A stretch of 36,397 nucleotides of DNA, from positions 1-36,397 of IMG/VR virus record IMGVR_UViG_3300030419_005935; one strand, given 5' to 3'. Of this stretch, positions 14,001-35,077 are shown piece by piece. Source of the stretch: a virus. How positions within the stretch are numbered: the first letter of the stretch is position 1; every line of letters begins with the position of its first letter. The notes beneath the pieces are model-generated. The model was not told where the DNA came from and did no database searches. It saw only the letters and a program-made list of their open reading frames with translations. Made by a program: the position numbers and the translations under genes.

Positions 14001-17000
14001 TAATCGTTCAATACCCAGCATTGAGTCTGTTGTTGATTTGGCGGTACAAGAGCAACCGTTTTGAGTCTCCAGCATCCCCCTAATCCCTGTTCACATTCCG
14101 CCTTTTGAGTTGCGCCATTTTGCGTCGGATCAGGCTGAGTACCTAAAACATTCCCAGTAGTTTTGTCTATACATACTCCGACTGGCCCGGGGCCACAATC
14201 TCCAGTTCCATAACCAGCAATGCCTATACACCCGCAGTCTGCGCCCCCTCTATTATACCCCGGAGTTCGTGTATCGGAACAAGGATAATATGCTGCAGGA
14301 GCAAGCTGAGGACAAGGCCTTGCTCTATAATAATGAATTATACCAGCAGCATTATTCGGGTTTGTGGTTTGCCAAGGCGCTGATGGACTTGGACTCGGTG
14401 AAGGAGTATTACTCGGGGTAATGGCTACATTCTTTGTGGGGGTAGGCGTGCTACTTGGACAAAGAACGGGTGTATTTGTGGGCGTCGGCGTTGGCGAAGA
14501 AGTCGGCGAATTACTTTGTGACACATATGGAGGTTGTGATACTGACCGCATAGGTGTATTCGACGGACTATTGCTTGGCGTATTATTCGGTGTATTCGAC
14601 GGACTATTGCTTGGCGTATTATTCGGTGTATTCGAGGGTGTGTTCGACGGCGTATTAGATTGAGTGACTCCCGGTGTGGAAGGTATTGATTTAGATGGTG
14701 TATTAGACGGCGAATTCGAAGGCGAATTAGACTGAGTCACGGACAGGTTCGGCGTGGGCGAAGGGGTCGGAGAATAACACGTAGGTTTGGGCGTATGGGT
14801 CGGAGTGGGCGTAGGTGAATAATTAGGTGTCGGCGTAGGGGTAGCGCAATTACATCTAGAAATACATTCTGCTTGTGTATTATATATATTAACCGTATAC
14901 TCATGCCCCCCATTCGGTACACTCTCGTGAATACATCTATGAGTCATAGGTTGGGGCGGTATCTGCACTGACCCAAAAACGTCACAAACACATTTCCACC
15001 TATTCATTGGACTCGGTAGCGATGTTGTGGGCGTAGGCGTAGGGCTCCACTGACAAGTCGTAGACGTCGGAGACGGCGAAGGGGTATTAGAAACTAACCC
15101 CGGTGTATTTGATGGTGTGGGCGAAGGCGAATTAGATGCAGAGGGGCTTACGAATGGACCTATGGGGCTAGGACTAGGGCTGGTTGATGGAGTTACTGGG
15201 GGAACTGGACACTTTAAGCCACCCTTAAAACAAACAAATACTTCATAATATGTAGTGTTCGTAAATATAGTATACCCTACCTGCTTATATCCAAAACACC
15301 AGCAGCAAGGATCTTGTAAATGTGCTGGTTGAGTTTGTAGCCAAGTAGTTAGAGAACCATAAAGCCAAGTACTTAAAGCTAAGGTAGTTAAATTTCCAGC
15401 GTGTTGTAAGCCAACTGTACCAATAGATTTATCTCTACAATTAGGGTCGTAATTAGCATGGTATCCAGCGGTATTCGTATTGCATCTTGGGCAATGATCA
15501 GGGGTCGGTGAAGGGGTAACGCTCGGCGTATTGCTTGGGGTATTACTAGGCGTGTTACTAGGCGTATTACTCGGAGTATTGCTCGGGGTGTTCGACGGAC
15601 TACTCGACGGGGTATTCGAGGGCGAGTTACTAGGCGACTGAGATGGTGGCGGAGGGAAAACAGGGACAGTTTTTGAGGGGGTATTACTAGGCGTGTTACT
15701 CGGGGTATTACTAGGTGTATTACTCGGCGTGTTAGACGGAGTGTTTGACGGCGTATTCGAAGGCGTGTTTGACGGTGACGCTCCCGGCGTGGGTGGTATC
15801 GATGTCGATGGGGTATTGCTGGGTGTATTGCTAGGCGTATTGCTTGGTGTATTCGACGGGCTATTTGACGGGGTATTACTTGGTGTATTCGATGGCGTGT
15901 TACTTTGCGACGGAGGAGGTGAAGTATTACTAGGCGTATTACTTGGGGTATTACTCGGCGTATTGCTTGGGGTGTTCGAGGGGCTATTCGGAGGGGTGTT
16001 CGAAGGGCTATTAGAAGGGGTATTCGATGGGGTATTACTCGGCGTATTTGATGGAGAATTTGATGGCGTATTACTAGGAGTTATGCTCCTAGATGGCGTA
16101 TTAGACGGAGTTTGAGTTGGCGTAGGCGTATTAGATGGAGTTACAGACGGCGTAGGCGTTGGGGTCGAGGTTGGTGTCGGGGAAGGCCTAAGCGGATCTA
16201 TGCATAATTCATTAGCTATATTTAAATAATTTGTTTGACCAATATAACAACCACTTTTGTAATAATCTACTGTCGCCTTGCTAACATTCACCATGCACAT
16301 TGGCCAACATTTATTATCATGAGGAAATATTTGTGCGCAAGATTTAACCCAAGGAGCGTTGAAATTAACGTCTGGATCATCTTGGCCGCAAAGCCCACAG
16401 AAAAACTGAGTTTCATTTATCTCTCCTAATCCTATTCCATGGGGATAAGGAATGTCTATGCCTGATGTAAGAAATTTTTCTTTTTCGTGTTGCTCTTCTG
16501 TTCCCCAATTTCCTAAATTGTTTAACCAATTAGGGCTAGTAATTTTGTTTCCTCTATGGTCGTATAAAAATCCACCAGTTAATCCATCCACCCCTTCGCT
16601 TTGGTCACCAGAATAAATAACAAAACCAGTGGTCATAGTTCTTACTTTGTGAACGTAACCACAACAATTCGCCCTGTTCATACCCACTGTATAATTTCTA
16701 TGAGGGGGTCGATAAGATCCAGTTATAAAATGGTTTTTGAAAATATGAGGCTCTAATTGATTTGCTTCGTATTCATTCCATTCGAATCTTATTTTATATG
16801 CGTCTGCATTTATTCCACTCCTAGGAAAGAAAGTTAATTCTCCCCCTTCCGTAGCCATATTTGAAATAATTGGAGCAGCGTGACCTGCGCCATGAGTATG
16901 AGTTGCGCCTGTCCAATACCAAATATAAGAATCATCTATGTTCTCTACATAGAAACCACTATCCGCACACTCTCCGCCTTGAGACCCTATCGAATATATA

Positions 17001-17611
17001 TGATTATACTCTCCATTAAGAGTCATCCAAGGATGCCGTTCTCTCTGAGGGCCATAAGCATGACAGGCAAAACCTCCAGCAATTTTATTATAATTCCCTA
17101 TGGGCGGAGGGAATAAATCGGTCTCATCAAAACAAGTATGATAGCCAGAAGAATTTTTATCCGCCATGGTTCTTTGACCGCTCATAGATGGTATTTGAGA
17201 ACATCCAGAAATCAGATCCCCATAAGTATCCTCGGTGGTAGGTACAAACAATCCACATTTAGAACTATAATATCTTCCCAGCTTCGGCATAGGGCCTAGT
17301 CCAAATGGGTTGTATTGCCTTGAAAGATCTGCGTCGAAAGGTCTCGAAGAGAATTCTCCAGAATTAGACCATTCGTCCATACCGGGAGCTACCCCGCTTC
17401 CTCTAAAAACTTGATCTCTTACGTTCCTTACTGTGCCCACTGTGCTAGGAGACCCCGGGGATGCGGGATTATGGGACAATATAAAAGGATGATAGGCGTA
17501 AAGACCGTCACAGGACCTTTCGGCTTGCCCTGTATAGCCTACGCTTCTCCTTTCTGGGCCATCATAACCATGACCCAAGAAAGGTAAATTTAAGAGATCG
17601 AATTTCGCCAT
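8078..17611 (-). CDS. Giant 3177-aa Pro/Thr/Ser-repeat virion protein with Cys-rich modules
   Basis: One uninterrupted frame takes up a quarter of the window. The layout is: a Cys/Gly/Tyr-rich globular N-terminus (about 1-470); long NTPS/PTPT tracts (about 473-708, 804-868, 921-1080, 1430-1594, 1710-1805, plus shorter ones to about 2220) alternating with Cys-rich globular modules; and a large Cys-containing C-terminal region (about 2220-3177) without repeats. Two modules are clearly paralogous: W-x-C-x-C-D-x-F-x-S-V ending C-x-S-x-C-N-C, at 14846-14998 and 11615-11743. Tags of the form [CN]YSPTPTPT or WSPTPTPT recur at module edges. The architecture suggests an extended fibre with disulphide-stabilised knobs on stiff Pro-rich linkers, probably on the virion surface for adhesion. 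That role is inferred; no enzyme motif is seen. A TAAGG ribosome site precedes the ATG and lies in a hairpin. Confidence 0.85.
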   Translation of the reverse strand: MAKFDLLNLPFLGHGYDGPERRSVGYTGQAERSCDGLYAYHPFILSHNPASPGSPSTVGTVRNVRDQVFRGSGVAPGMDEWSNSGEFSSRPFDADLSRQYNPFGLGPMPKLGRYYSSKCGLFVPTTEDTYGDLISGCSQIPSMSGQRTMADKNSSGYHTCFDETDLFPPPIGNYNKIAGGFACHAYGPQRERHPWMTLNGEYNHIYSIGSQGGECADSGFYVENIDDSYIWYWTGATHTHGAGHAAPIISNMATEGGELTFFPRSGINADAYKIRFEWNEYEANQLEPHIFKNHFITGSYRPPHRNYTVGMNRANCCGYVHKVRTMTTGFVIYSGDQSEGVDGLTGGFLYDHRGNKITSPNWLNNLGNWGTEEQHEKEKFLTSGIDIPYPHGIGLGEINETQFFCGLCGQDDPDVNFNAPWVKSCAQIFPHDNKCWPMCMVNVSKATVDYYKSGCYIGQTNYLNIANELCIDPLRPSPTPTSTPTPTPSVTPSNTPTPTQTPSNTPSRSITPSNTPSNSPSNTPSNTPSNTPSNSPSNTPPNSPSNTPSNTPSNTPSNTPSNTSPPPSQSNTPSNTPSNTPSNSPSNTPSNTPSNTPSNTPSTSIPPTPGASPSNTPSNTPSNTPSNTPSNTPSNTPSNTPSNTPSKTVPVFPPPPSQSPSNSPSNTPSSSPSNTPSNTPSNTPSNTPSNTPSNTPSVTPSPTPDHCPRCNTNTAGYHANYDPNCRDKSIGTVGLQHAGNLTTLALSTWLYGSLTTWLQTQPAHLQDPCCWCFGYKQVGYTIFTNTTYYEVFVCFKGGLKCPVPPVTPSTSPSPSPIGPFVSPSASNSPSPTPSNTPGLVSNTPSPSPTSTTCQWSPTPTPTTSLPSPMNRWKCVCDVFGSVQIPPQPMTHRCIHESVPNGGHEYTVNIYNTQAECISRCNCATPTPTPNYSPTPTPTHTPKPTCYSPTPSPTPNLSVTQSNSPSNSPSNTPSKSIPSTPGVTQSNTPSNTPSNTPNNTPSNSPSNTPNNTPSNSPSNTPMRSVSQPPYVSQSNSPTSSPTPTPTNTPVLCPSSTPTPTKNVAITPSNTPSPSPSPSAPWQTTNPNNAAGIIHYYRARPCPQLAPAAYYPCSDTRTPGYNRGGADCGCIGIAGYGTGDCGPGPVGVCIDKTTGNVLGTQPDPTQNGATQKAECEQGLGGCWRLKTVALVPPNQQQTQCWVLNDYIGQKRNRTQGPYIPAGAQPTNKCGTALFRTSEYRYINDASDQDKYCGNPNECGVVAPPAAVPGTAAPASSKREAIQIIHDANASIIETVGKRVAAQWSIYNQREEKYHCGWDASQTSKVCSIGGVTSLQLTVFKNNGDPLDVGTRLWHTADPNNPQPARIGNGTSSPPTPYFNGVFGGANAGGCINGKGNILNIYKAVNENKLITVEWEQTGGTWFSVIKSVTACSSSPPPPTPGTTPSPTASPTICLSVTPTPNRPNPSPTSTPSNTPSNTPSTSLSPSAGASPSATPSNTPSNTPSTSIPATPNLSPSNTPSNTPSNTPSTSLSPSAGASPSATPSNTPSNTPSSTPYPTPGASQSNTPSPTPSPTECPWSPTPTPTNSPTPSPTTVRFPPQVSRPVISWWPRRHCYGCPPIPKRKFWRPSGRQIHDSVRRRWAQMWGTQMAYGSTTQGATGRFTTLYSNRTSTFPRVARIGFRSTGYLINTTFNTSFSSTGALLPAPVTNSPLTIIVPVLTPTVTNTPRPNCYSPTPTPTPLRTPSASKPFQTPSNSPSSTTGLLPSRSPSNTPSNTPSTSLPATPGASPSNTPSRTPSPTPSHTGRIITPGTCWLTFTNLRTGVTVKAGGTLDACAGDQITAEWCRAFAGATYLLRIEAYGLTVPRNSRVCNGQYCGRAGCPHYICEDWYTGEMYTFAHIDGATSYTLWAPDSANIGANHIDGTLTISQQVCISPTPSPSSQTWSVTPTPTPASPTSRWECLCDKFTSVKRCVPEGTQRKFTENFLGYHNSKTDCESTCNCGPTVSATPAASPTAAVTASPRPNYSPTPTPSVSPSPSKGTTAAGACLPIHGGMIAKGSTRVTIQGWYLDPYAQLTGNPIKQGECIYFNNHNDVYEVLSVSMGTTNNHFVVSIDPPLKEDLFGGFCQGFCATGPSRIPLIAGATVNEACPMACPSPTPAASPGASPSATPSNTPSNTPSKTPAYPATPPASKPVSPPPTPSRTPRPSLPKFPPMPPRPGVTGTLDCHFILSAGHTGENAVFNGSANWWAVGFPFFFDDNYTTAKTSLFGWETNETLTEKQIVQNDDGEDVEVEVKKNRKYKFSYDQKSFPEGQTLKKCDDFGGYTGESQLSIKSVYVENGKDTLTADGGAVEDGFLFSTARGAESGTRRQVVNGSEIRSRGSADARGILDDAVVFNVSRVQANIPDNAGDGVDLNLDWTKVQMTVELREMLDILDSEVDGGIYQKYAGYINGIEYVWVPTFALDITQAGGWFWHAMKKVAEMGNCACTITGPGVDGIGQFLGMSRSSFENDGWEWEEVSMETATSVAILYTEFSFDGEPEECCDKTKDACEKDFCWDPLLSHPSALEIIHEPLGEFRGHAESELYIKGGSGPDGECSSQEYPYACRDFDLEHELNGSPIFNFYDYNDEGGDSGEKGDYCHKGYIPIFGNTQPDPSSQGLGEMACGHTFMSAGRIRESRNHPELNADITNVGSPNNDCWGGGPLMLLNTNDSHEFIVETHGTVCHPTGYEDIECQCSEDYIGTINSNYSVAPLTNPFYCPGDYTDLEKFEKSTTQTYKIESVKPPDSNKYKFIVQRDTDEYLDSLSFESNAYTLESMDQGGPEYDKEYILDTCSDNPIEGMVSAMINGGEYIDYSASCTGSGIFAPEDHGPGPESSRATLTFKFTKFNRGFLIYSMAGQAASPIDTVVDSNDKCLCPGDGGFEDEGGGGYGYGDDCEDKNMKIDDFTWYRREEEISINGEVIQLTSQKKKECDMHDWSSIEDFPTDASCYATCDSHSLKNVETYSVYIPISLNDKDGGGVPEYDHNLSAPYFYYKVEGYAQDGYFFDNGANHPLVALGPGSITFNAGECIAFTKKTTIKTYDPQKREDGGAYPEENVTTETLYLEIPKELNAYDIRKTVTQEDLDLGLICCSPTGSNVSRSWVSEDILFALDSDGGKIGQADDFVSLTLGGSSTPCSGGC
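10950..11150 (-). repeat. Pro/Thr/Ser-repeat tract (C-terminal-most)
   Basis: This in-frame low-complexity tract encodes SPTPAASPGASPSATPSNTPSNTPSKTP and similar runs, ending in a Pro-rich stretch. It separates the last Cys module from the large C-terminal region of the giant protein. Confidence 0.8.
11615..11743 (-). repeat. Cys-rich module copy 2 of the giant protein (43 aa)
   Basis: The module begins WECLCDKFTSV and ends DCESTCNC. It shares the pattern W-x-C-x-C-D-x-F-x-S-V, a central Cys, a Tyr-[His/Asn]-Asn element and C-x-S-x-C-N-C with the copy at 14846-14998, differing by an eight-residue length change in the middle. It looks like an ancient internal duplication. Confidence 0.7.
12200..12470 (-). 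repeat. Pro/Thr/Ser-repeat tract
   Basis: This tract encodes CYSPTPTPTPL and runs of SPSNTPSNTPSTSLPATPGA between two globular modules of the giant protein. It is in frame throughout. Confidence 0.8.
12975..13045 (-). repeat. 71-bp exact direct repeat, copy A
   Basis: This copy is identical base for base to 13119-13189. The period of 144 bases is a multiple of three, so the duplication adds whole repeat units. Exact identity among otherwise diverged repeats implies a recent event. Confidence 0.9.
13119..13189 (-). repeat. 71-bp exact direct repeat, copy B
   Basis: This is the second copy of the 71-bp repeat at 12975-13045. Flanking sequence differs on both sides, so the duplicated unit ends close to these borders. 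Confidence 0.9.
14380..14850 (-). repeat. Pro/Thr/Ser-repeat tract with 36-bp tandem repeats
   Basis: This tract encodes NYSPTPTPT, CYSPTPSPT and NTPSNSPSNTPN units. At 14553-14624 a 36-bp unit is present twice in perfect tandem, with a third partial copy to 14635. Confidence 0.85.
14846..14998 (-). repeat. Cys-rich module copy 1 of the giant protein (51 aa)
   Basis: The module begins WKCVCDVFGSV and ends ECISRCNC. It is paralogous to the module at 11615-11743, with the same order of Trp, Cys, Asp and Phe landmarks and the same C-N-C ending. It sits between Pro/Thr-rich linkers, as expected for a small disulphide-bonded knob. Confidence 0.7.
15490..16190 (-). repeat. Longest NTPS tract of the giant protein
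   Basis: About 230 residues are dominated by the tetrapeptide Asn-Thr-Pro-Ser (12-bp units), broken by short Pro-rich spacers such as SPPPSQ and TSIPPTPGA. Serine codons switch freely between TCN and AGY from unit to unit while the peptide stays constant. Antisense reading of this tract produces an artefactual plus-strand Leu/Gly/Val ORF. Confidence 0.9.
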
Positions 17612-18878: not shown

Positions 18879-19059
18879 CTTTTTTCATTACACTTAAAAA
18901 AGATAAACTACATAACATCAGTATAAGAAATATAATTAAAGCTATAGTTGGACTTCTATCTTTCAAAGAATATTTTTTGCCCCAAACTATATTTAAGTGC
19001 TCTGGAACAGAATTATATAAACGCATAGTAGTTGCGTTTTTTACGCCTTTCTTTTTCAT
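18754..19059 (-). CDS. Small single-pass membrane protein, 101 aa
   Basis: ATG 19059 lies 19 bases after the clpP-like stop. The product has a basic N-terminus (1-38), one strong hydrophobic helix (about 39-57: TIALIIFLILMLCSLSFLS) and a polar Ser/Asn/Glu-rich tail. The final 41 codons overlap the start of the 137-aa coiled-coil gene in a different frame. No Shine-Dalgarno is visible. I do not recognise the family. The membrane helix and good spacing to both neighbours argue for a real gene, but it is the least certain of this cluster. Confidence 0.5.
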   Translation of the reverse strand: MKKKGVKNATTMRLYNSVPEHLNIVWGKKYSLKDRSPTIALIIFLILMLCSLSFLSVMKKDESSVENKGESSNSIEEVNKSYGNDLYISISSDANNDVILR

Positions 19060-19078
19060 GGGGGTTTATCTAGGTAAG

Positions 19079-19813
19079 TTAATTATCTTTATTTAGGCGA
19101 TGCTCTGGCATCATAGCCTTAATTTCATCTACTAAACCAAGCTCTAAACATTCATCTGCATCAATCCACCAGTCTTTACGATCCCAATTTCTTTTGATTT
19201 TAATTTTTGTTAATTTAGAACGAGACACAAAAATATCAAGACATCTTTCTTCTATTCTTTTGACAAGTTTAACTTCATCTTCCACTTCGTAAGTTTTACC
19301 TATCGCTCCGAAAGCTGCTCTATGAATCATCATCCACGCTTGGTGACCAATCCATCTAACATCACCAGCTTGTAAAAGGATACCGGCCATAGATGCAGCC
19401 ATACCTAAAGAGCCAGTTGTTATATGATGACCTTTGTTTCTAAGGTCTTGTATAAAATCAAACAACTCAAAACCATCAATAATACTCCCCCCGGGGGAAG
19501 AAAAAACAATTTCAATTTTGCATTTTGGATCTTTCCTATGCCATTGAGTCAGTTTGCTCATGCAAGCTTCTACAGAGTTATGACTTACGTCTTTAGAGAA
19601 CCTATAAAGAAAATTTTCATCATCTGAATTTGCTTCTTTTTGTCTAGTCCTATAAGCTTTTTCAAATTCGAGTTGAGCTTTTCCAGCTTCCATCTCGACC
19701 TTTTTTGTTTCGGCTTCGGTTTTTTTAATTTCCGCAAGCTTCTCTTTGATTTCGGCTTGCTTCATCTCTAGATCTGCTGCGATCTCCTCTGGTGTCCTTT
19801 TCTCTTCGCTCAT
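19079..19813 (-). CDS. clpP: ClpP-like serine protease with N-terminal coiled coil, 244 aa
   Basis: Residues about 70-235 form a Clp protease fold. The landmarks are SSPGGS (105-110, oxyanion loop), nucleophile Ser141 in GMAASMAG, His164 in MMIHRAAFG and Asp214 in DRKDWWIDADECLELGLVD, so the triad is complete. Residues about 5-60 are an added Lys/Glu-rich coiled coil absent from bacterial ClpP. Phage ClpP-like enzymes often serve as head maturation proteases or act on host proteins. Here a separate protease/scaffold exists at 5636-7171, so the role is open. The gene lies between the holin/lipoprotein cassette and the small membrane proteins. GGAG precedes the ATG by 11 bases, and a terminator-like hairpin lies just upstream. 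Confidence 0.85.
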   Translation of the reverse strand: MSEEKRTPEEIAADLEMKQAEIKEKLAEIKKTEAETKKVEMEAGKAQLEFEKAYRTRQKEANSDDENFLYRFSKDVSHNSVEACMSKLTQWHRKDPKCKIEIVFSSPGGSIIDGFELFDFIQDLRNKGHHITTGSLGMAASMAGILLQAGDVRWIGHQAWMMIHRAAFGAIGKTYEVEDEVKLVKRIEERCLDIFVSRSKLTKIKIKRNWDRKDWWIDADECLELGLVDEIKAMMPEHRLNKDN

Positions 19814-19830
19814 AATAATATGGTCTCCGT

Positions 19831-19866
19831 AAAAAATGCGCTAGGCAAAATTAATTACACTAGCGC
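19831..19866 (-). terminator. Terminator-like hairpin between lipoprotein gene and clpP
   Basis: The stem is GCGCTAG/CTAGCGC (7 bp) with a 15-base loop, followed on the minus strand by A then six T residues. It lies 30 bases after the lipoprotein stop. The long AT-rich loop contains a GTGTAATTAA copy, so an attenuator is also possible. Confidence 0.6.
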
Positions 19867-19895
19867 GAGATGATGAAACGATAAATATTTTTAGA

Positions 19896-20114
19896 TTAAT
19901 CATTCATCGGGATGCCTCCCGCATACCAGCCTTCTGGTAATTTAACTTTTTTCTTTGATAAAACCCACTCTCCGTTTTTATTTACGTATACTTTTCCAGT
20001 TACGTCAGGGCCTAATCTTACTAAATCCGTCTGGGTGTCGACAAAAACAACACGGGTGCTTCCGCATCCAGTCAGAAAAATAACCAAACTAGTTAACGTC
20101 AGAATTTTTTTCAT
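19896..20114 (-). CDS. Small lipoprotein of the lysis cassette, 72 aa (o-spanin candidate)
   Basis: The product has a lipoprotein signal peptide with lipobox LTGC (lipidated Cys17), leaving a mature protein of about 56 residues. The mature part (VDTQTDLVRLGPDVTGKVYV, then LPEGWYAGGIP) resembles small phage lipoproteins commonly placed beside holin genes; this is recalled resemblance, not a search result. The gene overlaps the upstream 64-aa gene by 26 bases and has a good AAGGAAAG site. An outer-membrane spanin role is plausible, with the 137-aa coiled-coil protein as possible partner. A terminator-like hairpin follows it. Confidence 0.7.
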   Translation of the reverse strand: MKKILTLTSLVIFLTGCGSTRVVFVDTQTDLVRLGPDVTGKVYVNKNGEWVLSKKKVKLPEGWYAGGIPMND

Positions 20115-20283
20115 TTTCTTTCCTTTGCTCTTCCATTTTGGCTTGTTGTTCTTTTATCCTGTCAGCCCAACTTCTTTTTGTAGCTTCAGGTATTGCGTCG
20201 GCGTCACTCGCCTTAGTGTCTTTTTTTACTTCGGCTGTTAGCCACTCTAGTACAGCCTTAACTAAGGCTACTAGCCACGACAT
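20089..20283 (-). CDS. Small amphipathic/charged lysis-cassette protein, 64 aa
   Basis: I place the start at ATG 20283, which shares its A with the holin stop (TGATG), rather than at the GTG three bases before. The first 18 residues (MSWLVALVKAVLEWLTAEV) form a hydrophobic amphipathic helix and the rest is a charged, Lys/Glu/Gln-rich helix. This plan is often seen in small proteins encoded with phage holins. It may modulate the holin or line the membrane; the function is unproven. It also overlaps the downstream lipoprotein start, so holin, this protein and lipoprotein form a tightly coupled trio. Confidence 0.65.
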   Translation of the reverse strand: MSWLVALVKAVLEWLTAEVKKDTKASDADAIPEATKRSWADRIKEQQAKMEEQRKENEKNSDVN

Positions 20284-20492
20284 CACTTGCCTTTGGCTAG
20301 GCCTCTAGAGACAGTATATCCAACTGTTCCGAGCGCTGCAACTACAAAGCCAAAGACTTTGTTAGCTGTTCCAATTCCATCAGGATCTAGGATATCTGCA
20401 CCCCATAAGATTGATGCCAACGCAACGAGACTCGTTAACCAAAATTCCGTAGTTTTCCAACCCGGTTTTACTTCATTATTTTTTGCTGCCAT
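20283..20492 (-). CDS. Holin-like protein, 69 aa
   Basis: This small protein has two predicted transmembrane helices (about 17-35 and 43-62), a charged N-terminus (MAAKNNEVKPGWKTTEFW) and a basic C-terminus (RGLAKGK). The W-K-T-T-E-F-W-L-T start and the G-Y-T-x-S-R-G-L end match the style of small two-helix phage holins that open the inner membrane at lysis. The start has a strong AAGGAAA site in a TATATAACAAGG leader almost identical to that of the decoration gene. No endolysin was found in the window, so the lysis enzyme is presumably encoded elsewhere or is of an unrecognised type. Confidence 0.75.
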   Translation of the reverse strand: MAAKNNEVKPGWKTTEFWLTSLVALASILWGADILDPDGIGTANKVFGFVVAALGTVGYTVSRGLAKGK

Positions 20493-20498
20493 AATATA

Positions 20499-20514
20499 TT
20501 TCCTTGTTATATAA
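20499..20514 (-). promoter_or_regulatory. Shared leader TATATAA + CAAGGAAA before the holin
   Basis: The minus strand reads TTATATAACAAGGAAA. It differs from the decoration-gene leader (5614-5630) by one base, despite unrelated coding sequences. It combines an AT-rich box with a strong ribosome site. Confidence 0.4.
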
Positions 20515-20543
20515 TAAAAGACGATTTGACAAAATTCAAAAAT

Positions 20544-21713
20544 TTAATCGAGATCACCCAGAGAATGTAATTCATTTAATTTATTATCTGGACGACCCAA
20601 TCCGCCTATAGCTGTATACACAATTAAATTAGGTTTGTCACTACTATATATACCCCTATGGACTACGCTCCCTTTTCTTAATAATCTAGTGAACTGCCCA
20701 AATGCTCTATCTAGGCTTTTTTGTGGGATATTATTCAATACTTGCTCTCCACCGATCATCACAACGCCAGCAGAATTACCGCTAGACAAATCGATGTTTC
20801 CGCATAAAACATTATTTTTTAAATTTTCTCTGACCGTTCTAGAAATATTAGTTGAGTCTTGCCAATTATCGACTGGCGCTGCCCCGAAGAGTATAAAACC
20901 AGAATCTAAAATTTGTTTAAAATCATTAGAATCAAAAGCTGAATAACTACTATCTTTTATCGCCGTATGATTAAATAGATGAAAAAGACCAGCAATGCTT
21001 CTGTTTGCGGTCTTCCAAAATGGACCAACCGCCAGATTGGGATAAAGTTGACTAATTTTTTCATTGTCTAAAATAATTAATGGAGAAACAATACCCTCAT
21101 CAACAAGTTGCCAAACTTTTGCTAATGTTTTATGAGCGTTTGCATTCACTTTTTTACCTTCGGATTGTTTCGGTAAAGCTAAAATTACTCCTACTTTCTC
21201 CGTGGGCGCTTTAACTGAAATCTGCATTTCTCTAGCCGTATGGACCAAGGGGCAAACTGTACCCGCTCCAGAACCACCCCCTGCACCAGCACAAACAAAA
21301 ATTCTATCTATGTCCTCGCCAAAAGAATCATACATAAAATCCAAAACATCTTCTTCCCTCTCTGCATAACATCTTTCTGCAACAGTTGGATCTTTTCCTG
21401 CTCCGCCTTCTCCGATGCAAAGTTTATGATCTAATCGAATTGTATTTAAATCCTGTTGAGCGGTATTGATTGCGGAAATTTTTCTATAACCCAATTTATA
21501 AAAAGCCTCTGCTATCCTAGAACCTCCTTGGCCCGCTCCAACGAAAGCAAATTTAAAAGCTACATCACATTGATCTTGATTTTTCTCGGGAGCCTTTGGG
21601 GGAACAGGCATGGGCATATCCGGCATAGAGATATCCGGTTCTCCATGCCAATACGTGCCAAGATCTTCTCCGATCTTGTCTTCTCCATAAGGATTGTTTT
21701 CTTGATCCATCAT
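20544..21713 (-). CDS. FtsZ/tubulin-superfamily GTPase, 389 aa
   Basis: The protein has the tubulin-superfamily nucleotide-binding landmarks in order: FVGAGQGGS (57-65), AINTAQQDL (81-89), GEGGAGKDP (101-109) and the signature GAGGGSGAGT (143-152, compare G-G-G-T-G-T/S-G). The T7-loop region FDSNDFKQIL keeps the two acidic residues (Asp261, Asp264) that stimulate hydrolysis in the neighbouring subunit, but the FtsZ Asn position is Ala259. A disordered Met/Pro/Asp-rich extension (1-50) precedes the domain. The C-terminus is short and lacks the FtsZ peptide that binds FtsA/ZipA. It should polymerise with GTP. Phage tubulins (PhuZ, TubZ) position or segregate DNA; this one looks nearer to FtsZ by eye. 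It overlaps a 58-aa upstream ORF by ATGA. Confidence 0.88.
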   Translation of the reverse strand: MMDQENNPYGEDKIGEDLGTYWHGEPDISMPDMPMPVPPKAPEKNQDQCDVAFKFAFVGAGQGGSRIAEAFYKLGYRKISAINTAQQDLNTIRLDHKLCIGEGGAGKDPTVAERCYAEREEDVLDFMYDSFGEDIDRIFVCAGAGGGSGAGTVCPLVHTAREMQISVKAPTEKVGVILALPKQSEGKKVNANAHKTLAKVWQLVDEGIVSPLIILDNEKISQLYPNLAVGPFWKTANRSIAGLFHLFNHTAIKDSSYSAFDSNDFKQILDSGFILFGAAPVDNWQDSTNISRTVRENLKNNVLCGNIDLSSGNSAGVVMIGGEQVLNNIPQKSLDRAFGQFTRLLRKGSVVHRGIYSSDKPNLIVYTAIGGLGRPDNKLNELHSLGDLD

Positions 21714-21886
21714 TTCTTTTCTTTTGAAGCTGGAGCAGATTTTTTATTTAATTCATCTAAGACTGTATTCACGGCTACATCCACCATCCTGTGCTCTTCC
21801 CAATTAAGCTTAGATTGCCTTACTAAATTAACGATAGTATTAAAGGCCTCTTCCACGTTCATCTTCGGTTCTTTTTGATCGCTCAT
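21710..21886 (-). CDS. Small helical protein coupled to the tubulin-like gene, 58 aa
   Basis: This complete ORF runs from ATG 21886 to TGA 21710; the stop overlaps the ATG of the GTPase gene (ATGA), a strong sign of translational coupling. The product is MSDQKEPKMNVEEAFNTIVN followed by two more predicted helices and a Lys-rich tail. It is small, soluble and probably alpha-helical. It has no resemblance I can name; it is shorter than TubR-type winged-helix adaptors (about 100 aa). Its position suggests a regulator or adaptor of the filament, which is inference. No strong ribosome site is visible; TTATTATTATTATAATG lies upstream. Confidence 0.65.
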   Translation of the reverse strand: MSDQKEPKMNVEEAFNTIVNLVRQSKLNWEEHRMVDVAVNTVLDELNKKSAPASKEKK

Positions 21887-21925
21887 AGAACATTATAATA
21901 ATAATAAATTGATAAGTCTAATTAA

Positions 21926-23668
21926 TTACCAAACTTCTGCGGTGCTAGTCGTCAGAGATTCATTTAAGACTTCTACTATCTTGCCTCTCCCATTAGGATT
22001 TGCCATATTAGCTCGTGCAGTAATGCCACAATAATACTGAGTGGCCCTTGGCAGTTTTAAAACAATTACTAAATATTCTCCATCACCCGGAGAAGTGGCG
22101 TACATAGAATCTATATGAATAACATTTGTTCCATTCGAATTTGTTATTTCTGTTTGCCCCGGACTATCGTCGTTGGCCGCAGCGCTATACATATAACCAG
22201 CGCATGCAGAATTTATTATTCTTTCGTTTGTAGTATTACTATTAAAAGTATAACCTTCAAATATTATATGGAACATAGTACTATCACCTTTTTTGATATT
22301 AGTCTTAAGATGTAAATATTTAATGTCAGTTCCATTGTTCGTTGTGCTATTATAATCCCAAAATGCAGTCTGCTGTACTCCGCCCCTATAGGCCCAAGTG
22401 CCATACGCATCCATTCTTGTATATCTAGCGGTTTCATCCCCGTACTGGATAGCCAACCTGCTAGACGTGCCCGTTCCGTAAGTATACATTGCCCAAGACT
22501 TACTATGATTTCCATTATCTGCATTATATAAAACAATGCCCGCCGCCGCACCAGAACCAACGCTGGTGTCGCTTTGTACCTTAAGCATCCTAGCTTTGCT
22601 GTTCCAAGTTATTCCGCCTCCCGAGGTGGTAGTTGTGCCGACAAACACACCGCCCGGTGCCCCTGTTCCCGAGGAAGTACTTCTTAGCGCAAGGTTTGGA
22701 CTACTTGCTTCGCCTGTGTCGTTAGCACTTCTAAAAATTCTAAAATCATTATCACTTCCGCTACCAGCATAAAGATACCAGCTACTTCCCCCGGACACTG
22801 AAGTGCCACCTTTGGAGTTTAATATAACATTGGTGTCGTTAGCTGGGGAGGTCAAATAAATGGCACAATTACTTCCATTTTTCGATTTGAGTTCGCAATT
22901 AGCGCCATTATCATTAAGGGCAAAAAATGTACCACTATCTGTTCCATCATCGTTTAGAGATTTAACATTGAAGTAACTTTGGCCTGTCTGTCCAAGATCA
23001 CTTGTTCCTACTGCCCAAGCTTTTTTATTGGTTGCCCCTCCAGATTTGTAAAGACATACGTAAGTTTTTAAAGTGTCTCCATGGGCGTCGCCCTGAATCA
23101 TTACATGGGTATTCTCTACTTCTGAGACTCCTCCTAAAGTAATATAACTATTACTCTTAATTGTAAATTCGTAATTCGCAGAAGCTCTTAATCCTATTCC
23201 ATTATAAGAGCTACCACTCGTGTCTGTTCCCTGAATGTAGCCGAAATTATTACTATGGTCTGTTCCAAAAACCAAACCATTGGTTGTGCTACCAAACCTT
23301 GCGCACTCAGCGCCATCTGTGCCAGCGTGTGTTACGACGAAATTAGTGCCGGGTGAGCCGTTATTAATCCCAACATTTCCACCATTTAAAATTGTAAAAA
23401 GCTCTTTCGAGGTAGTCCTATTATAAACATAAAAACTAGTGGTATCATGCTCAAAGCTAAATTCGTTTCCGCCAGTCCGAAAAAAATGTATTTTTTTATC
23501 AGATCCTACATTGCTAATCCGTATTGCTCCACCAGCGACCTCTAGACTGTCTGATATGCTGCCCCCAGTGCCTATACCGATTTTTCCACCGATCAATGCA
23601 TCGCCATCAACATCTATATCATATAGAAATTTTGCTGGATTTAAGTCCCTTAACCGTACGTTTGCCAT
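21926..23668 (-). CDS. Tail-fibre-like virion protein, 580 aa
   Basis: The start (MANVRLRDLNPAKFLYDIDVDGDALIGGKIGIGT) is typical of fibre proteins that begin with an attachment peptide followed by image-like beta repeats. The body is Gly/Ser/Asn/Thr-rich with repeated short strands (about 40-420), and the C-terminal about 130 residues look globular and may be the receptor-binding tip or a trimerisation domain. No peptidase motif typical of intramolecular chaperones is evident. AGGATAGGAAT provides the ribosome site for ATG 23668. It follows the LamG-containing protein by 21 bases, and both probably form surface fibres. Confidence 0.75.
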   Translation of the reverse strand: MANVRLRDLNPAKFLYDIDVDGDALIGGKIGIGTGGSISDSLEVAGGAIRISNVGSDKKIHFFRTGGNEFSFEHDTTSFYVYNRTTSKELFTILNGGNVGINNGSPGTNFVVTHAGTDGAECARFGSTTNGLVFGTDHSNNFGYIQGTDTSGSSYNGIGLRASANYEFTIKSNSYITLGGVSEVENTHVMIQGDAHGDTLKTYVCLYKSGGATNKKAWAVGTSDLGQTGQSYFNVKSLNDDGTDSGTFFALNDNGANCELKSKNGSNCAIYLTSPANDTNVILNSKGGTSVSGGSSWYLYAGSGSDNDFRIFRSANDTGEASSPNLALRSTSSGTGAPGGVFVGTTTTSGGGITWNSKARMLKVQSDTSVGSGAAAGIVLYNADNGNHSKSWAMYTYGTGTSSRLAIQYGDETARYTRMDAYGTWAYRGGVQQTAFWDYNSTTNNGTDIKYLHLKTNIKKGDSTMFHIIFEGYTFNSNTTNERIINSACAGYMYSAAANDDSPGQTEITNSNGTNVIHIDSMYATSPGDGEYLVIVLKLPRATQYYCGITARANMANPNGRGKIVEVLNESLTTSTAEVW

Positions 23669-23678
23669 ATTCCTATCC

Positions 23679-23688
23679 TAAATTACAC
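23679..23688 (-). promoter_or_regulatory. GTGTA/AT-rich element upstream of the fibre gene
   Basis: The minus strand reads GTGTAATTTA, 10 bases before ATG 23668 and just upstream of the ribosome site. It is a member of the recurrent intergenic motif. Confidence 0.25.
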
Positions 23689-23689
23689 A

Positions 23690-26335
23690 TTAAAATAAAG
23701 GGTGATTACTATAAACCAAAGGATTACTGGAAGAATCCGTTAATGTATCACCATCAGAATTAATTAAATTATGTTCGAGTTCAGATATTGTACCGCTCAT
23801 GAAGAATCCCTTTGTCAAGTCTTCTGTATCAATTTGAGTGCTTAATGATAAACTCAAAGAATTGTTGCTTCCTACATTTATGCTTTCGGATACACTATCT
23901 AAATTGAAGCCCACAAGATCATAAGTTAAATTAATATCTGGTTGTATTCCAGTTCCATCTTTTTTCGCGGTTATTGATATATCATATAAATTGTCATTCG
24001 TGAAAACGCTTTCAAAAGATCCAGAGGATGTGCCACTAGGTATCAATTCTATATTCGCATTGATTTCAATCGGGAATTGAATAGGCATGTCGCTAGACCT
24101 TTTATTGCCTAAATAATGAATTCCATTATCTCTATTTAGGGTCATGTCTACGTCAAAAGACTCTACCGGATACGAATGAAAGTTTGGAGATTCTTCGTCA
24201 TTTAATTCTGTTATTACAATATCTTTTAAACCAAAGTCATCATCGGTACTACCCTGATAAGGGTAGCCAAAAGTATTATTGTGAGTAAAAATATATAAAG
24301 TTGTATTTGGACTTGAAGCATCAATTACAAAGGGGTCTGATACAAAATCCACCCATTCGCCCCTTTTGCTTATTCTAATATCCAGTCCGGCAGGTCTGTC
24401 TGCATAACCTGCATGGCCTACCGCTTGTTGATATCCAATCTCATCGTGAAAACGAACCTGAGTAATACTCGTAAGGTCTTTTATATAAATTTTAAAAGAC
24501 AATCTATATTTTTTATTTTTTTCAGGAAAAAGATTGGCATAATGTATATAATGCTGCGTATTATTACCATTACCCTGTAGTTTTAAAACGTTTGATTCAT
24601 CAGCGTATGTACTTCCAGCATTAGCTGTTAATTGGCTAATTATCCAACCCTCTACGGGACTGCCGCCAGCAGCCGTACTAAAATCTGAAGTATAAATATT
24701 TTTTAGTTTATTTATTTTAAGATTGAGATCTCCCGCAGAAAAGGTTCTCAAAGGATGAGAAAGCTCAGGAGAACTTTCTTCGTAATGTTTAGGGATGATT
24801 AATTGTTTGTTGGTTTGTTCTTCTTTGTTTGTTTCTTTGTTAAATCTAGGAGCGCAGAATCCACTACCAGAAGCATAGAAGGTTGCATTGCAAGCAGAGA
24901 AACCAATATCTGTTGTAGGAAAATCCCCGACGGATAATTTTAACGAATAACTATTAACATAACAATCCTGTAAGCATAATAAAGAATATCGATTTATATT
25001 TGGATCAATTACGTCATGTAGCTGACTTAGAGACGTTACGTTTACTGGGTAGTTTGAGTGTTGCTCTCTTATATCTTCATCAGTTTTATTACTTACGACA
25101 TATATATTTCTTCCATCATAATATCTTGATTCATCTAAGAAGTTTTTTATAAAATTTATTTTGGATGTATTTGATGATACTTGGTCTTTTATATTAAAGC
25201 CAATTTTCTGCTCGTTCTGCCCTCCCTCTATTACATAAGAAAAACTTCCGTCTATTAGGGTCGGAGATTTTGCCTTACGTGACAAAGAATGAGTCTTGCC
25301 TAAGATACTCAGGTCTTGCCTCTCTTGACTGAAGTTATACTGAAAACTCTGCACCCTATTTATCCTTTGGGGGATTTCAAAATGAGAACCGAAAGGTGTT
25401 GGCGACAAGGTTTCGAAGGGATAAACAGAGGAGTCTTCGACGTGAAGGCTTTTTATTCCCCATTTGTTTTCTAGAAAATTCTCTATGCTTTTTCTTTCGT
25501 TAGAGGGTAAGACTCTGTTAAATATTAGTATTTCGCCTATTAAGCCGTGAAAGAATTTCGTTGATTGACCTATTGTAACATAATGCCAAGAGTCCGAAGT
25601 ATAGCTTGGCGTTCCCGCCGTTGTCGATGCCGGTAAGCCATCTACTGTTAATATTGTATTTGTATGATTAGTTGCATTATTCCAAGAATGCATATATACG
25701 TGAGGCTTCCATAAGGGTGGTTCATTCGCTACGTGAGGATGAGATGGAGAAGTAGAAAAAGTTCTGGTTGATGAACTACCATCAGGTTGCCCGAACCAAC
25801 CAAAAGTACCATAACCACTTGAACCCCGATTTATACCTATGCCTCTCTGCGCTATCGAAGCATATCCAGCGTGATCAATTCCTATTAGCCCGTGCGTGTA
25901 GGTTGTGCCTGATCCAAGGTCAGACCATCTCGGTTCAGCTACTACGAATATGGTGTGTCCATCACTAAATGATTCGTTAAGCGTGCCCTGAATAACATCG
26001 TTATAACCGTCAAAAAATGCAGCAGTTCTATTATTTATTTTATATTGTGGATCAATAGTGGGGGAACGGTCGGTGCTACTCGCAGCCATATTTGTTGAGC
26101 CGACAAGCGCGCCAGCCTTGTCGTCTATACCCCAAAGTACGTGACCAGCCGTCGTCCCTCCCGATCCATCATATGGAGACATTCTAAGGGTCGATATATC
26201 TGAAAAATCATACCAAGCAACCAAGCCGTTATCCTTGGATATATAACCTCCATAATAATCTGGATCCTCATATTTACCCAAAGGATTCCCTATGAGAAGA
26301 TCCTGTACGTTATAAGATATTCTAGCTCTAGACAT
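23690..26335 (-). CDS. LamG/lectin-domain virion protein, 881 aa
   Basis: Residues about 35-295 look like a concanavalin-A-like LamG domain: GLVAWYDFSD at the start and the closing helix FNRVLPSNERKSIENFLENK typical of such domains. Residues about 545-710 resemble a carbohydrate-binding jelly roll (KKYRLSFKIYI, GEWVDFVSDPFVIDASSPNT, DDFGLKDIVITEL). The remainder looks like a structural beta protein. Such domains bind sugars, so adsorption to host glycans is likely; this is inferred from family knowledge. The ATG at 26335 has an AAAGGA site six bases upstream. It lies between portal and fibre genes and is probably part of the tail or capsid surface. Confidence 0.75.
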   Translation of the reverse strand: MSRARISYNVQDLLIGNPLGKYEDPDYYGGYISKDNGLVAWYDFSDISTLRMSPYDGSGGTTAGHVLWGIDDKAGALVGSTNMAASSTDRSPTIDPQYKINNRTAAFFDGYNDVIQGTLNESFSDGHTIFVVAEPRWSDLGSGTTYTHGLIGIDHAGYASIAQRGIGINRGSSGYGTFGWFGQPDGSSSTRTFSTSPSHPHVANEPPLWKPHVYMHSWNNATNHTNTILTVDGLPASTTAGTPSYTSDSWHYVTIGQSTKFFHGLIGEILIFNRVLPSNERKSIENFLENKWGIKSLHVEDSSVYPFETLSPTPFGSHFEIPQRINRVQSFQYNFSQERQDLSILGKTHSLSRKAKSPTLIDGSFSYVIEGGQNEQKIGFNIKDQVSSNTSKINFIKNFLDESRYYDGRNIYVVSNKTDEDIREQHSNYPVNVTSLSQLHDVIDPNINRYSLLCLQDCYVNSYSLKLSVGDFPTTDIGFSACNATFYASGSGFCAPRFNKETNKEEQTNKQLIIPKHYEESSPELSHPLRTFSAGDLNLKINKLKNIYTSDFSTAAGGSPVEGWIISQLTANAGSTYADESNVLKLQGNGNNTQHYIHYANLFPEKNKKYRLSFKIYIKDLTSITQVRFHDEIGYQQAVGHAGYADRPAGLDIRISKRGEWVDFVSDPFVIDASSPNTTLYIFTHNNTFGYPYQGSTDDDFGLKDIVITELNDEESPNFHSYPVESFDVDMTLNRDNGIHYLGNKRSSDMPIQFPIEINANIELIPSGTSSGSFESVFTNDNLYDISITAKKDGTGIQPDINLTYDLVGFNLDSVSESINVGSNNSLSLSLSTQIDTEDLTKGFFMSGTISELEHNLINSDGDTLTDSSSNPLVYSNHPLF

Positions 26336-26346: not shown

Positions 26347-28374
26347 TTATGTTTTGCTTACATAAAGAATACTAGCTAGATATTGATCAACTTGATGCTC
26401 TACAGCTATTTCTTGAATCTCATCGATTCTTTCTTGATTTGTGTCAACAGGTTTCTTGACGTAAGCGCTTACTTTCTTTTTCCAATTATTGGGGTCTTCA
26501 TTAGCTATAATTACCGAAGCGATTCCTTCAGCAACTTCTTTTTGCTTTTTGTTAAGCCTTTTAATTTTGTTTTGCTTTCTCAATTCTGCTTCAACAAGTT
26601 TATTTAGCGAGCTAGCTAGTATTAAATTATCGGTTACCTTTGATAAGCTAAAAGATGCTACGGATTTAGGCGGCGTACCATTTTTAGATTCACCAATAGG
26701 TTTAACATTTTTAGTTGTTTGCGGGGACTTCGTTCCCGCTGGCCTTCCAGCCTCTTTACTGGGTTGACTGGGCTGAAAGCTAGTTTCTTTCTTGACTTCA
26801 GAACTCATCTTTCCTAACTTTACCTGAGTGTAAGGACCGCCCGTTACTGGCTCGTAAAGGCCCTTGTCGCGCAGTTTCTTGTATGCCTCTTGGTTCTGTA
26901 CCGACATTTCTGCATCGGGCAATTTACCGCTTTCTATGGCTGTTACGCCCTCCTCTGGGGTGAGTACGCCAATTTCAATTAGCCTATTATATATTCTAGA
27001 AATATTAGTGTCATCTTTTAAAGAAATTCTTTCGAACTCTGGCCTTGGAAAATTCTTAAAACCGATCTGTTTAGATATTCTTTTAATCTCTGGTAATAAA
27101 AATTCATTTATAAAAGCTTGTCTAGCTTGCCTTAATCTTCCGATAAAGATTTCTACTTTAATGTTTTGGTTTGCGAATCTCTCTCCAGATCCGACAAAAA
27201 CATTATTCAATCCAATTTGAATATCTCTGTTTACAACTTCATACTTCTTCGGGTCAAGAATAGATGCAATGTCTGGAATAACAAACTTAGCCTCTGTGGT
27301 ATAATCTGCGATTAAAACTCTGCCTACAGATTCGTTCTGGAAAAGGTTCTGCATGGCTTGTAGATTTTTTTGATTAACCCCTCCTTTGTCTGGCTCTGCT
27401 CCCATAGTTACCAAAAGGATAGCTTGCTGAGTGGTTCTGGTGATGGCCATGTCCATCTTTTTCATTTCTTCTTTCCAGTTCAAGTCTCCCAAAACTGGAT
27501 AAGCCATGGGGATAGCGAACGGTTCATAGTCTTGTTTTTTGTAAAAGACTGCATTTATTTTGTTGCTGTTTAGGGGCAAAAGAACTAAACTGTTAGATTT
27601 TTTATTAACTTGCTCTTTTACATCTGGATCTAGATTGTTTAAGATTTGTTCATCCTCTTCTGTCCTCGGGTTTCTTATTCTATCTAGCTCATAATCGGTG
27701 AGTACCTTAAAATAATTTCCCGTAGCAAAACTGGCTGAACCTGCAATTTGTATATCTGCTGGATTTAAAATAATATATCTAGAGGGTAAAGAAATTTTCG
27801 CATTAGATGTTCCGCCGAACGTTTTAGTAATTTTGTTTATATCTTTTTTCTGTAGATCTGACTCAAGTCTATATAAAAATACATTTCCCGACCGATAATA
27901 CTCTCTAAAGAATTTATCTTGTAATTCCCAGATGTTTATCTTCTTAAAATAACTTTCAAAAAAGTCTCTAGATTTTTTGCTTCCACCCCGATAATAAATA
28001 GAGCTTATAGAAAACTCAGTCATGAGGTCTATGGTATTTCTAAAAATTGCAAAATTATAATAAGCCTTTTGGCACAACATAACCGCGTCCCTAACGTTTA
28101 AGTTAGACTTATTGGTTATCCCAGAAGAATAATGAAACGGCACTAAACCGTCTTCTATATTTCTAAATCTATCAGTTCTATGGATTGAACCTGCTCGATT
28201 TCTTCTGCTCGTGGTATCTGTAGAGCTAGACGCATGAATTTCTGACCCCCCTGACATCAAGGGAAAAGACATGCTGCTGGCATTAGCCTCTTCCGTCGGG
28301 GCTTTTTTGGTCCTTTTCCTAGTTGTTGCGCTCTTTTTTGAAGCGTTTGTATTTTTTGGGCCTTTTTCGTTCAT
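26347..28374 (-). CDS. Portal protein, 675 aa
   Basis: This is the predicted dodecameric portal through which DNA is packaged. It lies directly after terL, as is usual. Residues 1-75 are basic and disordered. The core (about 75-480) has the portal style, including LDPKKYEVVNRDIQIGLNNVF and a QNIKVEIFIGRLRQARQAFINEF helix, and the MAYPVLGDLNWKEEMKKMD segment seen in many phage portals. After about 480 it continues with a SGKLPDAEMSVQNQEAYK helix, a Ser/Pro/Lys-rich linker (about 510-575) and a helical C-terminus. The extra C-terminal region is longer than in many portals. A GTGTAATTTTA element lies six bases upstream of the ATG, with no Shine-Dalgarno. Confidence 0.85.
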   Translation of the reverse strand: MNEKGPKNTNASKKSATTRKRTKKAPTEEANASSMSFPLMSGGSEIHASSSTDTTSRRNRAGSIHRTDRFRNIEDGLVPFHYSSGITNKSNLNVRDAVMLCQKAYYNFAIFRNTIDLMTEFSISSIYYRGGSKKSRDFFESYFKKINIWELQDKFFREYYRSGNVFLYRLESDLQKKDINKITKTFGGTSNAKISLPSRYIILNPADIQIAGSASFATGNYFKVLTDYELDRIRNPRTEEDEQILNNLDPDVKEQVNKKSNSLVLLPLNSNKINAVFYKKQDYEPFAIPMAYPVLGDLNWKEEMKKMDMAITRTTQQAILLVTMGAEPDKGGVNQKNLQAMQNLFQNESVGRVLIADYTTEAKFVIPDIASILDPKKYEVVNRDIQIGLNNVFVGSGERFANQNIKVEIFIGRLRQARQAFINEFLLPEIKRISKQIGFKNFPRPEFERISLKDDTNISRIYNRLIEIGVLTPEEGVTAIESGKLPDAEMSVQNQEAYKKLRDKGLYEPVTGGPYTQVKLGKMSSEVKKETSFQPSQPSKEAGRPAGTKSPQTTKNVKPIGESKNGTPPKSVASFSLSKVTDNLILASSLNKLVEAELRKQNKIKRLNKKQKEVAEGIASVIIANEDPNNWKKKVSAYVKKPVDTNQERIDEIQEIAVEHQVDQYLASILYVSKT

Positions 28375-33870: not shown

Positions 33871-33985
33871 TAAATCTTTAGCAATAATAAATATTCAGAA
33901 ATCTAAAGGCCAAAAAGACGCAGTTTGGGAGCACGCAATTAAAATAAATGAAATTGCACACAAATTACATGATTTTATGGATTAG
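33812..33985 (+). CDS. Small helical protein overlapping the metalloprotease, 57 aa
   Basis: ATG 33812 has AAGGA seven bases upstream, inside the end of the metalloprotease gene, in another frame. The product (MQSQAREKQDVKGLLREIGD ... HKLHDFMD) is soluble and predicted to be helical. I do not recognise it. The longer reading from GTG 33755 lacks a ribosome site and encodes a basic, unlikely extension. The stop TAG overlaps, tail to tail, the stop of the Cys-rich minus-strand gene. Confidence 0.6.
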   Translation: MQSQAREKQDVKGLLREIGDKSLAIINIQKSKGQKDAVWEHAIKINEIAHKLHDFMD

Positions 33986-34155
33986 TGGCATCCGCAATTT
34001 TTGCCACAGCATTTGTCAGAATGACAAGAGCATTTACATGTCTTTAAATTGCACAGTCCCACCTTACAAAACCAGTGTTTAATTTTTTTCCAAAGCCATC
34101 CGTGATTTGGGTCTTTCTTTATAAATTTTCCATGTCCTGAACTCCACATACTCAT
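33982..34155 (-). CDS. Cys/His-rich miniprotein, 57 aa
   Basis: This complete minus-strand ORF runs from ATG 34155 to TAA 33982 and starts MSMWSSGHGKFIKKDPNHGW. The second half holds nine cysteines (30, 35, 40, 42, 44, 49, 50, 54, 56), with CKCSC, DKCCGKNCGCH and several His, a pattern seen in metal-binding or metallothionein-like miniproteins. No known family is recognised. It shares a convergent stop with the plus-strand 57-aa gene. A GTGTAATTATTA element lies five bases before the ATG, and no Shine-Dalgarno is visible. A second ATG two codons in (34149) is an alternative start. Confidence 0.65.
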   Translation of the reverse strand: MSMWSSGHGKFIKKDPNHGWLWKKIKHWFCKVGLCNLKTCKCSCHSDKCCGKNCGCH

Positions 34156-34185: not shown

Positions 34186-34995
34186 CTAACCAGAAGGCCT
34201 CCAGACCATATCGTTATTATATTCTTTTCGCTCATTAAGTTTAGTTATTAAGAACTTCACTAATTCTGATCTCATTATATCTTCTTCTGTAAATTCGAAC
34301 GTATAGACTCCGTGTTCTTTACTTTCTTCATCTGAAAATGTTTTATACATAGTGGAAAACCCACCGGATATTCTATCATTTTTTATGTCAGTCTGCATAG
34401 GATCTGCTAAAATGAAGCATCTACTGTGTTTGCCCATTCTGGTCAAAACAGTAGTAATTTCCTTTTCTGTGGAATTTTGCGCTTCATCTAAGATAATGCA
34501 CTTAGAAGTCCAATTCATGCCGCGCGCAAAGTTAACAGGAAACATAGATACTCTGCCTTCGGATTCGAGTTTCTCAACTCTCGTTTCAGCTAACAATTCA
34601 TCCAATTTATCTAAAAAAGGTAAATTATAAAATCTTAATTTATCTTCAGCGCTTCCGGGGAGATACCCTAGGCTATGAGCGCTGCTTTCTACGGCTGACC
34701 TTAAATACATAATATCAGATATCATTCTTTTGTTTAATAACTGTAAAGCACAATATACTGACAGTAGGGTTTTTGAAGTACCCGCAGGACCTTTAACAAA
34801 AAGAACATTAACATTTGGATCAAGTGCTAATTTAAAAAATTCCTTTTGCTTATCACTCCAAGGAAATTGCTTTATCCTTACTTGTCTTTTAATTGGGTTG
34901 GGATTTTCAATGACTTCGGTAAGTTCCTCATCAAGCTGCTGACGAAGTTCTTGTTTATCTTTGGCTCTCGAAGATAGCCCCTTTTTCTTGTTCAT
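34186..34995 (-). CDS. phoH: PhoH-like ATPase, 269 aa
   Basis: This is a P-loop ATPase of the PhoH family: Walker A GPAGTSKT (69-76), Walker B CIILDEAQN (166-174), and the family pattern around FILADPMQTD and SGGF. PhoH-like genes are widespread in aquatic phages; biochemical function is poorly known, with RNA/DNA helicase or phosphate-related roles suggested. I use ATG 34995 rather than the GTG three bases upstream because no ribosome site supports GTG. The first 30 residues are charged and disordered. It faces the plus-strand low-complexity gene across an 82-base divergent gap carrying GTGTA motifs on both strands. Confidence 0.92.
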   Translation of the reverse strand: MNKKKGLSSRAKDKQELRQQLDEELTEVIENPNPIKRQVRIKQFPWSDKQKEFFKLALDPNVNVLFVKGPAGTSKTLLSVYCALQLLNKRMISDIMYLRSAVESSAHSLGYLPGSAEDKLRFYNLPFLDKLDELLAETRVEKLESEGRVSMFPVNFARGMNWTSKCIILDEAQNSTEKEITTVLTRMGKHSRCFILADPMQTDIKNDRISGGFSTMYKTFSDEESKEHGVYTFEFTEEDIMRSELVKFLITKLNERKEYNNDMVWRPSG

Positions 34996-34997
34996 CA

Positions 34998-35062: not shown

Positions 35063-35077
35063 CTAGAGGAAACAATT

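Follow-up and report, generated by a model that had tools for sequence, protein, structure and literature searches.

Few phage tubulins are known, and these are mainly from jumbo nucleus-forming or plasmid-like phages. Where, then, does the tubulin-like protein of an uncultivated marine phage belong, and what might the phage use it for? We analyzed this gene in the whole stretch of DNA that carries it (the window), which is one 36,397-base IMG/VR virus record. The gene and two loops of its product lie as follows:

20544 to 21713, minus strand: phage tubulin, a TubZ-like GTPase of the tubulin/FtsZ superfamily, 389 amino acids, ATG start (PF00091, AlphaFold and Foldseek, 77 relatives)
21258 to 21287, minus strand: T4 signature loop GAGGGSGAGT, residues 143 to 152, with G145, G146, G147, G149, and G151 invariant
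20922 to 20936, minus strand: T7 synergy loop FDSND, residues 260 to 264, with D261 and D264, aligned with LDFAD of FtsZ and FDxx(D/E) of TubZ

A sequence-only reading of the window had claimed a 389-amino-acid tubulin-like GTPase with GAGGGSGAGT, D261, and D264, and all of these were found. The protein matches the Pfam Tubulin family PF00091 above the cut-off (E = 9e-12; 46.1 bits versus 33), far beyond chance, and its best PDB match by sequence is 4ei7 (TubZ/RepX; E = 7.7e-15), followed by FtsZ and CetZ. Structure prediction, which the same reading had proposed as a check, gave a confident tubulin fold: the AlphaFold model, built on 43 relatives, has a pLDDT of 87.6 and a pTM of 0.85. A Foldseek search with this model returned 765 PDB matches at E ≤ 0.001, the top ones being TubZ, FtsZ, and CetZ; TubZ structures head the ranking (best, 2xka; E = 1.3e-22), and CetZ2 is among the structural matches. 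The protein is thus confidently modeled as a two-domain tubulin/FtsZ fold, closest to TubZ.

Among 77 distinct relatives, there is no variation at G59, G61, G64, G145 to G147, G149, G151, N217, D261, or D264, and the T6 region of the window protein carries the TubZ-type sequence VDNEK. The alanine noted earlier in place of the FtsZ asparagine is present (Ala259) but is not distinctive; this position is S, A, or T in 45, 30, and 2 of the 77 sequences, so that Ala259 is ordinary for the phage family, and plasmid TubZ likewise lacks the T7-loop asparagine of FtsZ. Beyond the core, there is no C-terminal partner peptide of the FtsZ type. The protein stops a few residues past the core helix, which bears out the claimed absence of an FtsA/ZipA-binding tail, and the consensus C-terminal end of the phage tubulins is LKELKKLGDL. 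Comparison with the closest relative (L059) gives a dN of 0.10 and a dS of >3; the gene is under strongly purifying selection.

To place the protein, we scanned IMG/VR with the family alignment and found at least 302 stretches that encode relatives, 80 of which were retained; when 50,697 records of sequenced phages were searched at the protein level, no relatives were returned at E ≤ 0.01. A scan of genome contigs added one phage-like contig from a metagenome-assembled genome (MAG) (L083; tubulin 46% identical) and 17 loci with 35 to 38% identity in MAGs of Planctomycetota, Omnitrophota, and Anaerolineae; in the MAG loci that were inspected, the tubulin gene lies amid ordinary chromosomal genes. 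The phylogeny covered the phage family, the chromosomal group, plasmid TubZ, Bacillus phage G gp138, and FtsZ; PhuZ was dropped from the later tree, since its branch length of 4 makes its placement unreliable. In the IQ-TREE analysis without PhuZ, the phage family and L083 form the sister group of the chromosomal TubZ-like proteins (aLRT, 97.9; bootstrap, 99), and the phage family is separate from plasmid TubZ, phage G gp138, and FtsZ whether or not PhuZ is included. A position outside the tubulin superfamily, which the sequence-only reading had named as an outcome against it, did not occur. The window gene is one of a large clade of TubZ-related phage tubulins that had not been set apart before; we found no paper describing this family in the literature searched, the coverage of which was incomplete.

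The chromosomal sister group (Phycisphaerae, other Planctomycetota, and Omnitrophota MAGs) has the same loops in contexts without phage genes, and most of its members have a Lys/Arg-rich N-terminal tail as opposed to the acidic PDIP tail of the phage proteins. These chromosomal proteins occupy loci L084 to L100 in Phycisphaerae, Omnitrophota, and Anaerolineae MAGs (e.g., L086:9743-11026 and L089:9722-11044), most with a histone-like tail, and L100 has the gene in two tandem copies. In the class of genome G031, only 3 of 61 genomes have a tubulin/FtsZ match, all of the weak TubZ-like kind.

Membership in FtsZ, classical TubZ, and PhuZ was considered and is not supported. FtsZ shares the GTPase domain, the T4 signature, and the two T7 aspartates; however, the window protein scores 73.2 bits against a TIGR00065 cut-off of 295.2, lacks the T7 asparagine and the C-terminal tail, and lies outside FtsZ in the tree. 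TubZ of Bacillus-group plasmids and phages (type III partition) has VDNE(K) after T6 and the T7 pattern FDxx(D/E) in common with it but is only about 20% identical and forms a separate clade; unlike TubZ, the window tubulin has a conserved N-terminal motif and sits in a block of head genes, with no adjacent tubR and no tubC iterons within positions 19000 to 24000. PhuZ of the Chimalliviridae is also phage encoded and also dispensable in some relatives, but it has no close structural or sequence similarity to the window protein (TMq of about 0.53, a weak match) and a different gene setting. Long contigs of the window family also differ in showing no chimallin: phiKZ gp54 had no match in 7 contigs of 83 to 162 kb, which is weak evidence because the genomes are incomplete and a single query sequence was used. 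A search with a multisubunit RNA polymerase profile was uninformative, as this profile scores phiKZ itself below the cut-off. Bacillus phage G gp138 is likewise a phage TubZ-like protein, about 24% identical to an Omnitrophota homolog, on a very long branch and with no adjacent portal gene. The best viral structure match in BFVD (E = 9e-34; 27% identity) is A0A6J5RW92, annotated "FtsZ Cell division GTPase" from an uncultured Caudovirales phage, which at 452 amino acids is longer than the window tubulin.

The gene immediately upstream had been proposed as a translationally coupled partner:

21710 to 21886, minus strand: 58-amino-acid open reading frame (ORF), a clade-restricted accessory gene whose TGA overlaps the tubulin ATG (ATGA); weak match to phrog_25521 (E = 0.003)

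The overlap is exactly as described (21886 to 21710 over 21713 to 20544), and the ORF is a real gene, its product being 75% identical in L059 (dN, 0.16; dS saturated). The partnership failed, however, by the very outcome set beforehand as refuting it, namely, that the small ORF is not conserved beside tubulin homologs. In a profile search, the 58-amino-acid family was found in 6 of 107 tubulin loci (the window, L059, L003/L004, and L005/L006), and the start-codon overlap is limited to the window and, by one base, L059. A dedicated IMG/VR scan added a single locus, L169, in which a 69% identical copy lies in a 44-kb record without tubulin. Given this distribution, we regard the gene as a clade-restricted neighbor and not as a general tubulin partner; it also has no similarity to the gene in the TubR position of a plasmid.

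A far more constant neighbor is the portal gene, and the surrounding block bears on head formation:

28396 to 30213, minus strand: terminase large subunit (PF03237, 1.8e-10; phrog_2, 2e-25)
26347 to 28374, minus strand: gene for the portal protein (cluster 1), conserved as the upstream neighbor of the tubulin (phrog_16240 portal, E = 0.0011; position after TerL)
23690 to 26335, minus strand: structural protein of the virion (cluster 14), encoded between the portal and tubulin genes in some members of the family (phrog_10356, 1.2e-06)
20283 to 20492, minus strand: small membrane protein (cluster 11), holin-like (phrog_34682 holin, at E = 0.03 only)
19079 to 19813, minus strand: ClpP-type head maturation protease (phrog_94, 7.5e-49; PF00574, 8e-27)
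5636 to 7174, minus strand: cluster 4, a putative scaffold or protease by its position from portal block to capsid, without a family match

The portal gene is upstream of the tubulin gene in 104 of 107 loci; the 107 loci include redundant contigs and were collected via the tubulin itself. In 79 of them, the tubulin starts no more than 150 bases from the portal (median distance for all 104, 11.5 bases), so that it is probably cotranscribed with the portal; in other loci, a structural gene lies between the two. No portal neighbor was seen beside the tubulin in L061 or L002. In the former, an 82.9-kb contig, the tubulin is near ORFs of 1,717 and 2,653 amino acids, and in the latter it follows an ORF resembling a secreted serine protease. 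Downstream, the commonest neighbor is cluster 11 (47 of 90 loci). A separate portal search yielded an outgroup (L071 to L081) with a portal about 41% identical, cluster 4 directly next to it (gaps of −94 to 34 bases), and no tubulin in records of up to 59 kb; tubulin therefore occupies a slot between the portal and the next head gene. Because holin-like and lipoprotein-like genes are found in the same slot, it may be a site for accessory genes. Gene order of this kind is evidence of operon membership and not of function.

The tubulin-free record mentioned above (L169; IMGVR_UViG_3300006789_000047) falls within the tubulin carriers in a tree built on the portal, which indicates that tubulin has been lost and is dispensable there or has been relocated. 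This is comparable to the situation in nucleus-forming phages, some of which lack PhuZ (PMC11724907). The slot in L169 holds glycosyltransferase-like genes, and cluster 6 (below) is absent as well.

Scans of the window for promoters and terminators gave no excess above shuffled sequences, and Rfam and tRNA scans gave no matches. Between the holin/protease block and the cluster 6 gene, positions 8078 to 17611 hold an ORF of 3,177 amino acids with almost no family match (phrog_15511, 7.8e-4); at the equivalent place, L059 has an ORF of 1,652 amino acids, cut by the end of the locus. A Cys/His-rich ORF of 57 amino acids at 33982 to 34155 (KTCKCSCHSDKCCGKNCGCH) is metallothionein-like in composition. 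The sole large plus-strand ORF (34961 to 36397) is low complexity, rich in Pro, Gly, and Lys, runs off the contig end, and is divergent from PhoH.

One further gene accompanies the tubulin at a distance:

7486 to 7998, minus strand: DUF5824-like helical protein (cluster 6; PF19141, 6.6e-10 in L108)

Cluster 6 is present in 46 of the 51 tubulin loci that have both markers and thus span its slot. The remaining 5 have c30, a remote homolog (hhalign E = 1e-5) that substitutes for it in one lineage. It was found in none of 11 tubulin-less loci; its occurrence in the tubulin-less record L068 makes it a lead to, not proof of, a link with tubulin and weakens the case for an exclusive partner. Cluster 6 tracks tubulin better than the 58-amino-acid ORF does, though imperfectly. 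Its structure model has no significant PDB match.

The N-terminal tail of the protein also holds a conserved stretch:

21606 to 21635, minus strand: conserved linear motif DISMPDMPMP, residues 27 to 36, in the disordered N-terminal tail (conservation in 77 sequences)

AlphaFold gives pLDDT values of <50 at residues 1 to 24 and low values to about residue 45, as for a disordered tail. Across the 77 sequences, P31 and P36 are 100% and D27 is 96% conserved, while the rest of the tail is poorly conserved; the consensus is D-I-S-M-P-D-I-P-M-P, with the near-invariant pattern DIxxPDIPxP. The motif is retained in phage contig L083 and absent in the chromosomal relatives, and a regular-expression search of the gene set found no match outside the tubulins. 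From this conservation, we predict that the motif is a docking peptide for a cargo or adaptor.

What might such a protein do? FtsZ docks its partners through its C-terminal tail. We tentatively favor, at a little short of an even chance, the view that the phage tubulin is a late-expressed cytomotive filament for head assembly or capsid traffic. It would be made late, together with the head genes, and would polymerize with GTP into dynamic filaments by which proheads, or the site of assembly or packaging, are positioned or moved inside the cell; the N-terminal D-I-x-x-P-D-I-P-x-P peptide would dock the cargo or adaptor, substituting for the C-terminal tail of FtsZ. Support for this proposal comes from the fold, from the purifying selection on the gene, from its near-fixed place behind the portal, and from GTPase loops and T7 aspartates that are intact. 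The role would resemble the capsid-traffic part of PhuZ activity, as capsids reach the phage nucleus on PhuZ filaments (PMC10299810); this is a precedent for function, not for membership. The broader idea, that the whole clade is devoted to virion morphogenesis in large phages without a nucleus, where filaments comade with the portal place proheads via the PDIP-type peptide, is possible but doubtful; contigs of tubulin-carrying phages reach 162 kb. The earlier suggestion of a distinct phage cytoskeletal module, perhaps for capsid assembly, fits a tubulin that lies in the head-assembly block and is not PhuZ, classical TubZRC, or FtsZ; it loses the 58-amino-acid partner, and the capsid role is putative.

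Other roles were weighed against the same evidence. PhuZ, the best-studied phage tubulin, positions DNA at mid-cell and is among the BFVD structure matches, and the window protein could similarly act as a spindle that holds replicating phage DNA or the phage factory at mid-cell, with no special head link. We consider this unlikely, since PhuZ is so distant in structure and branch length, chimallin is without a match in contigs of up to 162 kb in the single-sequence search, and phiKZ gp39 has no portal annotated next to it, whereas the window tubulin is linked to the head block. A TubZRC-type system that partitions the genome of a plasmid-like or pseudolysogenic phage is less likely still. A maintenance gene would be unexpected within a head operon; moreover, plasmid TubZ has a gene of ~80 to 110 amino acids directly upstream, but no TubR-like gene adjoins the window tubulin (the 58-amino-acid ORF is dissimilar and missing from 101 of 107 loci), nor is there an iteron array nearby. 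This is despite plasmid TubZ being the nearest match of known function by both structure and sequence, the VDNEK motif, and a match to PF22453 (TubZ-like_C) that is at the cut-off in a relative (L008) and is not reported for the window protein.

There is little chance that the phage tubulin copolymerizes with or poisons host FtsZ to inhibit division. Many phages inhibit FtsZ, and the window protein has the same fold; however, known phage inhibitors of FtsZ are small early proteins, whereas this one is encoded in a head block, is very distant from FtsZ by TIGR00065 score, and fully keeps the polymerization-coupled T7 aspartates, which a decoy would not need. The block of host division raised by the sequence-only reading gained no positive evidence. 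Equally improbable in our view is a noncytomotive GTPase or head structural protein (an assembly chaperone or virion component) that has kept the tubulin fold: the 79 loci in which the gene directly adjoins the portal and a dedicated protein bearing a linear motif are compatible with such a role, but the T7 aspartates, which activate the neighboring subunit, are completely conserved, and this argues for head-to-tail assembly.

This tubulin family is common in environmental phages and unseen in sequenced records at the sensitivity used. A chromosomal sister group in a class mostly without FtsZ or tubulin offers a lead on how cytoskeletal genes may have passed between phages and hosts. The portal linkage suggests that certain phages employ a cytoskeleton of their own during particle construction, and a single gene makes the use of filaments in virion assembly by ordinary large phages directly testable. 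If the broader idea of a clade devoted to virion morphogenesis is true, these tubulins would provide the first example of a phage cytoskeleton whose main tie is to head assembly and not to DNA positioning.
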